A stretch of 21,831 bases of DNA from a virus, in IMG/VR virus record IMGVR_UViG_3300035670_001361, positions 1 through 21,831 of that record; one strand, given 5' to 3'. The notes below the pieces were generated by a model that had not been told where the DNA came from, did not search any database, and worked only from the letters and a program-made list of their open reading frames with translations. This document shows positions 1 to 21,506 of the stretch, piece by piece. Every line of letters starts with the position of its first letter. Within the stretch, counting starts at the first letter, position 1. The translations under genes and the position numbers were made by a program.

Positions 1-82
1 CCCGACACGGGTAACAAGTGTCGTAAATAAACAGTTGCAACAACAAAAGCCGCACCAATGCGGATGGCTGCTTAAAGCAGTG
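1..82 (+). ncRNA. ssrA: Probable coding end of a permuted tmRNA (partial, 5' part outside window)
   Basis: Trans-translation RNA that would rescue stalled ribosomes by adding a degradation tag. Seen: a 6-bp stem (3-8 with 18-23), then GUAAAUAAACAGUU leading into a GCA resume-like codon at 37. An open frame from 37 to 72 reads ATTKAAPMRMAA and ends in TAA at 73-75. That stop is the loop of a perfect 5-bp hairpin (68-72 with 76-80), as in tmRNA helix 5. A second hairpin (50-54 with 59-63) lies inside the tag. The loop of the first stem (11-15) could pair with 35-38 as a PK1-like pseudoknot, with one G-U pair. Known: tags end in Ala-Ala, and in circularly permuted (two-piece) tmRNA genes the tag piece is last and is followed by a terminator, which fits here. 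The tRNA-like half would lie before position 1, so the call cannot be completed. No tRNA-like 3' half is visible downstream. Confidence 0.5.
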
Positions 83-88
83 GGGTTT

Positions 89-123
89 CCCGGTTTTCCC
101 GCGACTGAAAAACCGGGTTTTTT
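89..123 (+). terminator. Rho-independent terminator
   Basis: A perfect 9-bp stem, CCCGGTTTT (89-97) with AAAACCGGG (109-117), has an 11-base loop and is followed by six T. It ends rightward transcription entering from the left edge, most simply the RNA at 1-82. Confidence 0.85.
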
Positions 124-3714: not shown

Positions 3715-4374
3715 TTGGATATTAAAAAGTTTATACATAAACCTATTGTAATTGATTGGTCTCTGGAAGAAACTTATGTAAACGGATCTCGTTTTTATAA
3801 GACCCCAGAAGGCATTTTTCCAAGTGTTACAACTGTTGTTGGCTGGGAAAAACAAAAGTTTTTCAGTGAATGGAGAAATAAAAATCCACAAGAAAGCAAA
3901 CGTGTCACATCTAGGGGAACAAAGTTTCATAAATTAATTGAAAACTATTTAAACAATGAAACTATTGATTTTGATAATGTTCATTCTTCTCAAAAATCAT
4001 TATTTTCTATATTAAAACCAGAAATAGACAAAATAGACAATATAGTTGCTTTAGAAACTCCTTTGTTTTCAAGAACAGTGGGTCTTGCTGGAAGAGCAGA
4101 TTGTATTGCTGAATATGATGGTAAGCTAACCATTATAGATTTTAAAGCAAGCACAAAAGAAAAAAGAGAAGAAGATATTGATAATTATTTTGCTCAAGCA
4201 ACAGCATATGCTTTGATGTATCAAGAACGAACTGGAATAATTGTTGAAAACTTTGCTATTTTAATAGCATGTGAAGATGGATTAAGACAAGTATTTCAAG
4301 GAACACCATTAAAATATGTTAAACATTTATCAAATTTAATAAAAAAATATAAAGAAGCAAACTATGTTCCATGA
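3715..4374 (+). CDS. PD-(D/E)XK exonuclease (RecB/MGME1-like)
   Basis: DNA exonuclease for phage replication or recombination. The 219-residue protein carries the family motifs in order: RGTKFHKLIENY with H72/E75, E115 before the core, GRAD (126-129), the catalytic IDFKAS with D142 and K144, and the helix motif YFAQATAYALMY with Q161. It has the length and motif order of single-domain RecB-type nucleases. The start is TTG at 3715: an in-frame TGA stop at 3712-3714 excludes any earlier start, no ATG lies nearby, and AAAGG at about 3702-3706 is a suitable Shine-Dalgarno site. Its end overlaps the next gene by 11 bases, suggesting coupled expression. Confidence 0.88.
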   Translation: MDIKKFIHKPIVIDWSLEETYVNGSRFYKTPEGIFPSVTTVVGWEKQKFFSEWRNKNPQESKRVTSRGTKFHKLIENYLNNETIDFDNVHSSQKSLFSILKPEIDKIDNIVALETPLFSRTVGLAGRADCIAEYDGKLTIIDFKASTKEKREEDIDNYFAQATAYALMYQERTGIIVENFAILIACEDGLRQVFQGTPLKYVKHLSNLIKKYKEANYVP

Positions 4375-4960
4375 ACAAAGAACTCTTGAAGACCAAGTAA
4401 ATACAAAAGGAACAAAGCTTTGGATGCAAATGAACGATAATTCCAAAGCGCATAAAATGCGTAATCTTTTTGTTCAAAAAAATGGGGGATTCTTCTTTCA
4501 AGAAGACAATCAATGGAAATGGAAATCAGATATTGATGTTAAAAATGGTTATTGGTTAAAAAGAGTTGATACAGAAGAAAAAGTTTTTTTTGAAAATATG
4601 ACCGAGTTTGGAAAAAAACATGGTCTCTCAACAGTCAAAATATGTGAATTATTAAATGGAAAAAGAAAAACATATAAAGGATGGACTGCTGTAGAAATAA
4701 GAGAAGTTAAACAAACTGCTGGATCAAATAAGAAATTAAAAAAACCAAAAAGACAAAAAGTTCAAATTACTAAATCTGCAACGTTTCAAGATATAACAAC
4801 TGGGGAAATTATCAACGTTCTAAGTATAGCAGAATTTGCCAAACTTAATAACTTAGATTATGCCAATTTACGAAAATTGGCGATTGGAAAGAGTAAAACA
4901 TACAAAAATCTTAAATTATATGATCCTTTGGAAAAATATAAAGACTCTTCCCAAGACTAA
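4364..4960 (+). CDS. DNA-binding-repeat protein (NUMOD/IENR1-like), no nuclease core
   Basis: A 198-residue basic protein with two similar helical repeats. One is near residues 79-107 (FGKKHGLSTVKICELLNGK, then KTYKGW); the other is near 157-187 (IAEFAKLNNLDYANLRKLA, then KSKTYKNL). This pattern (short helix-turn-helix, then GK.KTYKG/N) is the one found in NUMOD/IENR1 DNA-binding repeats of homing endonucleases. No HNH or GIY-YIG motif is visible. It may be a degenerate homing nuclease or a stand-alone DNA-binding partner of the overlapping exonuclease. The repeats are seen; the family link is from memory and moderate. The stop TAA forms part of the CTAAATA box of the next gene. Confidence 0.6.
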   Translation: MFHEQRTLEDQVNTKGTKLWMQMNDNSKAHKMRNLFVQKNGGFFFQEDNQWKWKSDIDVKNGYWLKRVDTEEKVFFENMTEFGKKHGLSTVKICELLNGKRKTYKGWTAVEIREVKQTAGSNKKLKKPKRQKVQITKSATFQDITTGEIINVLSIAEFAKLNNLDYANLRKLAIGKSKTYKNLKLYDPLEKYKDSSQD

Positions 4961-13744: not shown

Positions 13745-13816
13745 TGCGGCTGGAGAGAATCGAACTCTCATATCAAGCTTGGAAGGCTAGCGTAATGGCC
13801 ATTATACTACAGCCGC
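13745..13816 (-). tRNA. tRNA-Gly (anticodon TCC)
   Basis: A 72-base cloverleaf: acceptor GCGGCTG/CAGCCGC with discriminator A, T-arm GAGAG-TTCGATT-CTCTC, anticodon loop CTTCCAA on stem CTAGC/GCTTG, and a D-arm starting GTAT. The anticodon stem has one T-T mismatch and the D-stem is short. CCA is not encoded. It reads GGA codons, which suit an AT-rich genome. Confidence 0.88.
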
Positions 13817-21435: not shown

Positions 21436-21506
21436 TTCCTTCGCTAGGATTCGAACCTAGAAAGAGAGATCCAAAGTCTCCCGTGTTACCGTTACACCAC
21501 GAAGGA
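21436..21506 (-). tRNA. tRNA-Gln (anticodon TTG)
   Basis: A 71-base cloverleaf: acceptor TCCTTCG/CGAAGGA with discriminator A, D-arm GTGT/ACAC, anticodon stem GGAGA/TCTCT with loop CTTTGGA, T-arm CTAGG-TTCGAAT-CCTAG. CCA is not encoded. Its first 15 bases overlap the last codons and stop of the upstream methylase gene. Confidence 0.92.

Follow-up and report, generated by a model that had tools for sequence, protein, structure and literature searches.

What is the short stretch at the left edge of this phage contig, where a very small reading frame ends in a hairpin and a terminator follows at once? The window, which is the whole stretch of DNA analysed here (21,831 nt, 1-21,831), is a linear virus record with no bases to the left of position 1. 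The first-pass annotation proposed that positions 1-123 are the tag-bearing piece of a phage-borne, circularly permuted tmRNA. The elements on which it drew, including AACAGTTGCA, are all where it placed them: the tag frame at 37-72, the stop codon in a hairpin loop, and a terminator 8 nt later. The beginning of the window contains the following features:

1-2, + strand: CC, either the final two bases of an AUACC/AUGCC strand pairing with the acceptor piece's 5' end GGUAU (off the contig) or PK1 stem 1 with GG at 10-11
3-23, + strand: PK1 stem 2, hairpin CGACAC...GUGUCG 5' of the tag; 3-8 pair with 18-23 (143 of 144 cells paired)
24-36, + strand: segment between PK1 and the tag, nearly invariant among relatives
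37-75, + strand: tag reading frame ATTKAAPMRMAA with resume codon GCA (GCA...GCT, 37-72) and stop UAA (TAA, 73-75)
50-63, + strand: hairpin CCGCA-CCAA-UGCGG within the tag frame; variants with other letters (UUGCUAA/UUAGCAA, UUGCCA/UGGCAA) still form a hairpin
68-80, + strand: stop-codon hairpin CUGCU-UAA-AGCAG, 5 bp, with TAA in the loop; paired in 24 of 24 copies
80-102, + strand: putative PK2 stem 1, GUGGG (80-84) with CCCGC (98-102) in the terminator loop; both strands invariant, even where the terminator differs
89-123, + strand: intrinsic terminator and probable PK2 stem 2, CCCGGUUUU/AAAACCGGG plus U6; the stem changes in relatives
129-135, + strand: T4-type late promoter motif ATAAATA for the downstream unit, assigned from the enrichment of [AC]TAAATA at ORFs

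In the window itself, neither ARAGORN nor Rfam (RF04321) reports a tmRNA, because over half of the gene falls outside the contig. Both give only two tRNAs, and the claim was therefore tested in relatives. Folded by itself, 1-125 has an unremarkable energy (z -1.6); support for the tmRNA reading is comparative. Rfam overlaps of anti-hemB (17.8 bits) and RT-12 (16.4 bits) with 1-260 fall far under the gathering scores, and we regard them as chance overlaps on the hairpins and terminator.

A degenerate DNA pattern of the tag recovered ten further viral contigs, and the adjoining RuvC-like resolvase gene (237-785, phrog_159), used as a query, gave 80 loci. Positions 1-123 recur without a change (123 of 123) in three contigs from other samples (L005/L113, L006/L112, L010/L110), and positions 1-84 (84 of 84) also in L003/L012, L004, L009 and L011. 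The records with the identical 123-mer (L005, L006, L010/L110, L113) contain complete permuted tmRNA genes, which bears out the proposal that the tag piece is the 3' end and is followed by a terminator. The contig probably stops at this point because the stretch, near-identical from one related phage to the next, breaks assembly. The acceptor piece of this phage would lie beyond the edge, and we take its form from the near-identical sisters.

RF04321 matches 31 of 50 whole related records, including that of Pelagibacter phage Mosig, with 51-82 bits in 30 related phage contigs and 93.6 bits in Mosig. The match lies directly upstream of RuvC or elsewhere on the same contig. ARAGORN predicts a permuted tmRNA at 16 loci with the tags ATTKAAPMRMAA, ANIKAAPMRMAA or ANIKAAPLRMAA; the tag of the window is the one read in the complete copies of L002, L004, L007 and L008. 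The circular permutation, with the acceptor piece upstream and the coding piece downstream, is complete in L012, L003, L006, L010, L011 and others, and the window holds the 3' part only. The copy in L012 (2544-2819, 57.2 bits for RF04321) contains, in order, an acceptor piece GGTATTG...GGGGTTCGAATCCCCACGACTCCA, a 97-nt intervening segment, GGGGTCGAAAGGCATCGACTGG..., PK1, the tag, the stop hairpin and PK2/terminator. An extension to the left had been expected to reveal a T-arm and acceptor piece, an intervening segment, a GGGG-type start and a D-loop. The relatives (L012 2544-2819; 24 distinct copies) have these parts, as an acceptor piece (T-arm, CGACUCCA), an intervening segment, GGGGUCG and a D-loop-like part. 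The CCA end expected with the acceptor piece is not encoded; the piece ends at the discriminator A. Acceptor pieces measure 60-61 nt in the 24 distinct copies, and coding pieces, counted through GTGGGG, 130-133 nt. The coding-piece starts were picked by best pairing with the acceptor 3' end, which introduces a mild bias, although inspection by eye leaves no doubt about the GGG...G start.

Two length classes of intervening segment occur, one of 5-6 nt and one of 71-98 nt (TTAGCCTAACC...); in L111 the segment measures 122 nt and resembles a further tRNA-like RNA.

In the tRNA-like domain, the 7-bp acceptor stem is paired in 168 of 168 cells across the 24 distinct copies, with double changes at three pairs: pair 4 occurs as G-C, A-U and U-A, pair 5 as C-G and U-A, and pair 6 as three pair types. 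G3:U70, the alanine identity element of tRNA-Ala and tmRNA, is invariant (24 of 24 distinct copies). The T-arm, off the contig for the window, is present with a UUCGA loop in 24 of 24 distinct relatives. In the P2a helix, which joins both pieces, six of seven pairs carry compensatory changes. For P1, the T arm and P2a alike, pairing as complete as that observed never arose in 1000 shuffles, a figure that ignores relatedness and serves as a guide, giving no probability; slid controls pair far less.

P2b is paired in 24 of 24 relatives, with covariation at one pair, and at bases 1-2 it competes with the PK1 stem 1 pairing as one of two alternatives. PK1 stem 2 has one compensatory variant, in L098 (CGUUAC/GGAACG), with both sides changed at two pairs. 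The stop-codon hairpin has no covariation support because it is invariant in the 24 copies. The terminator consists of a 9-bp stem, CCCGGTTTT/AAAACCGGG (89-97/109-117), and T6 at 118-123, and begins 8 nt past the stop hairpin. The strong terminator noted after the tag is present at 89-123, with the refinement that it probably doubles as PK2 stem 2, together with GUGGG/CCCGC; region 80-117 can form an H-type pseudoknot. In L121 both sides of stem 2 are altered together (CUGG/CCAG). Five contigs (L099, L100, L102, L103, L107) have another terminator and keep GUGGG/CCCGC; there GGUC/GACC is possible as the second stem, and a separate terminator follows. That the terminator and PK2 uses coexist in one stem is our inference. 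The family RF04321 is indicated by the permuted order, the tRNA-like domain, the short tag frame ending in AA, and PK1 before and PK2 after the tag (PK1 stem 1 with two candidate pairings). PK1 and PK2 flank the tag in two-piece tmRNAs (PMC3985003).

The same five contigs also have an extra base after the GCA resume codon (GCAAAAAATAATT...), which places the conserved tag end in the +1 frame; they comprise two sequence types. Strict conservation of the tag frame across all relatives is contradicted by these contigs, which may use a frameshift, slippage on the A run or a shifted resume codon.

With a probability of about 0.93, we read window 1-123 as the 3' end of the coding piece of a T4-like phage's circularly permuted ssrA gene, whose product would serve in ribosome rescue. 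The gene order, pairing, covariation, tag, terminator and promoter motif behind this reading come from sequence, mostly that of the relatives. Processing, charging, SmpB binding, proteolysis, timing and a role in infection would follow as in other members of the family; ribosome rescue and tagging with host SmpB, in particular, are predicted from family knowledge. One transcript would give rise to two pieces, an acceptor piece (60-61 nt) and a coding piece (~165 nt), which would pair through P1 and P2. The RNA may then be charged with alanine through G3:U70, bind host SmpB and enter stalled ribosomes. No SmpB was found in 21 phage records, so the host's SmpB would be used. The tag added would be Ala from the charge, then ATTKAAPMRMAA, and the peptide end predicted for tagging by a complete phage gene (L012 or L010) is AATTKAAPMRMAA. 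Ribosomes would be released and their products marked for host proteases.

In this phage group the tmRNA is probably a late transcript. Its T4-type late promoter would start at the acceptor piece's first G or precede a tRNA-like leader. In the window, [AC]TAAATA lies within 30 nt before 5 of the 14 main ORFs; random ATGs would give 0.29 (0 of 5000 samples reached 5). NTAAATA is present in the last 45 nt of the leader in 9 of 24 distinct complete copies, in every case exactly 5 nt upstream of the acceptor piece's first G. T4 late promoters have a known spacing of motif to transcription start, and the start of transcription is therefore predicted to be the mature 5' end. Most of the remaining leaders have a tRNA-like element in that place, often with a CTAAATA motif ahead. 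It is possible, if rather doubtful, that this T4-like group has made split tmRNA a late gene, with a promoter at the mature acceptor 5' end, a PK2-terminator fusion, tRNA-like RNAs in the leader and intervening segment, and a phage tag replacing the host's, so that late trans-translation would run on phage terms.

The tRNA-like RNA is 80-96 nt (L012 2456-2536; also L006, L097, L098, L102, L113 and others). It has a 7-bp acceptor-like stem and a T-loop-like GGUGCARGUCC, with 15 predicted pairs, five of them compensatory, and it is not called by Rfam or ARAGORN. It lies between the late motif and the tmRNA acceptor piece, or near tRNA genes (L002, L113).

The near-complete relatives G035 (137 kb) and G040 (136 kb) encode a T4-type major capsid protein (gp23), which in G035 is ~51-54% identical to cyanomyophage proteins. 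The closest RuvC from an isolate is that of Mosig (45% identity). At the DNA level, the tmRNA has no relatives among 50,697 deposited phages. The first-pass annotation took the tag to hint at an alphaproteobacterial host, which is not supported. A scan of 84,980 species genomes with the pattern KA-x-P-x-R-x-AA found no bacterial tmRNA with this tag ending; the pattern covers set substitutions only, which leaves room for a more divergent host tag. Three pattern matches (Anaerospora, Williamsia, Mediterraneibacter) are due to chance, as the fetched stretches contain no tmRNA or tag-like context.

The phage tmRNA might instead be mainly a competitor that diverts SmpB, AlaRS or stalled ribosomes from host tmRNA, with an unusual tag that, to the phage's benefit, weakens or redirects proteolysis. 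Its tag differs from that of Mosig, and the C-terminal motif was not found as a tag in the bacterial species scanned. A precedent is Mycobacterium phage DS6A, which likewise encodes a tmRNA-like RNA; that RNA lacks a tag frame and inhibits host tmRNA when expressed in E. coli (PMC11915505), whereas the RNA here has a tag, resume codon, stop and pseudoknots. A competitor needs the tRNA-like part alone, yet the tag frame is kept in full, with its resume and stop codons, as are PK1 and PK2, and the tag ends in AA, as ordinary degradation tags do. We therefore consider a mainly competitive role unlikely.

That the fragment is a scar or decaying remnant of ssrA, left by imprecise excision of a prophage integrated there, is far less probable still: ssrA is a common integration site (PMC9004378, PMC11915505) and the fragment stands alone in the window, but in relatives, phages that encode T4-like capsid proteins, the gene is complete, its stems covary, and it has a terminator and late promoters. 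In view of these complete copies a prophage or att scar is rejected. A chance combination of a small open frame with a hairpin and a terminator, or a protein gene that begins here, has next to no probability despite the missing ARAGORN and Rfam calls and the 75-aa open frame (35-262), given the letter-for-letter recurrence with full tmRNA genes upstream. A protein-coding reading of 1-262 is rejected: the frame at 35-262 is 3-38 aa in most relatives and 71 aa in one. A protein gene over 1-80, which would have spoken against the tmRNA, is not present, because this overlapping frame is not conserved.

As a kind, the phage-borne two-piece tmRNA is already known: 53 of 133 distinct phage tmRNA structures are two-piece (Melnitz, Mosig, others), 50 of the 53 from marine or aquatic sources (PMC9004378). 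Less usual here are the late promoters, the tag and the PK2-terminator overlap. The ssrA of Melnitz, a Methylophilales phage, is reported to lie behind an early promoter with a glutamine riboswitch (PMC9004378). Melnitz resembles the present case as an aquatic myophage with T4-like genes and a circularly permuted phage tmRNA of unproven function; it is set apart by that description from the phage group here, with its T4-type late promoter or tRNA-like leader. Neither the riboswitch nor the early promoter is seen in the relatives: nine have the late-type motif 5 nt before the acceptor piece, and no glutamine riboswitch matches L012 2420-3030 at E up to 5. The leader belonging to the window is off the contig. 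In Mosig (EXVC030M), a T4-like phage, the annotated SsrA (MT647606, 111558-111772) also belongs to RF04321, but its tag is ..FLNGEDNFALAA, it does not adjoin RuvC, and blastn finds no DNA-level similarity to this tmRNA. Bacterial permuted tmRNAs (RF04321; RF01849) share the gene order, the tRNA-like domain and the PK1-tag-PK2 coding piece. The complete phage copies score above threshold for RF04321, and the alphaproteobacterial model alpha_tmRNA (RF01849) gives a 10-bit match only, elsewhere in L012. Among the bacterial species scanned, no tmRNA had their tag ending.

As this case shows, 120 bases from the edge of a contig are enough for a correct reading as split tmRNA, and following the fragment up yielded 24 distinct phage copies with clear covariation. 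Single-contig tools overlook such truncated copies. The late promoters, the phage-specific tag and the pseudoknot-terminator overlap make it testable whether phages supplement or steer trans-translation.

The tmRNA cassette adjoins RuvC in some phages and lies ~20 kb off in others (L002/L033 and L006/L026, on the same contigs), and so seems to travel as one unit, set between late promoters and terminators. A conserved structured RNA with no Rfam match lies at 141-222, shortly before the RuvC gene and between late motifs at 129 and 227. It has 24 predicted pairs, 14 with compensatory changes (12 sequences), and is also found in phages with the tmRNA elsewhere. The other large ORFs of the window that were tested match no Pfam family. 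Further along, the window contains:

4364-4960: HNH/homing endonuclease-like gene (phrog_2081)
13745-13816, - strand: tRNA-Gly(TCC), with a late-type TAAATA motif just upstream
21436-21506, - strand: tRNA-Gln(TTG)
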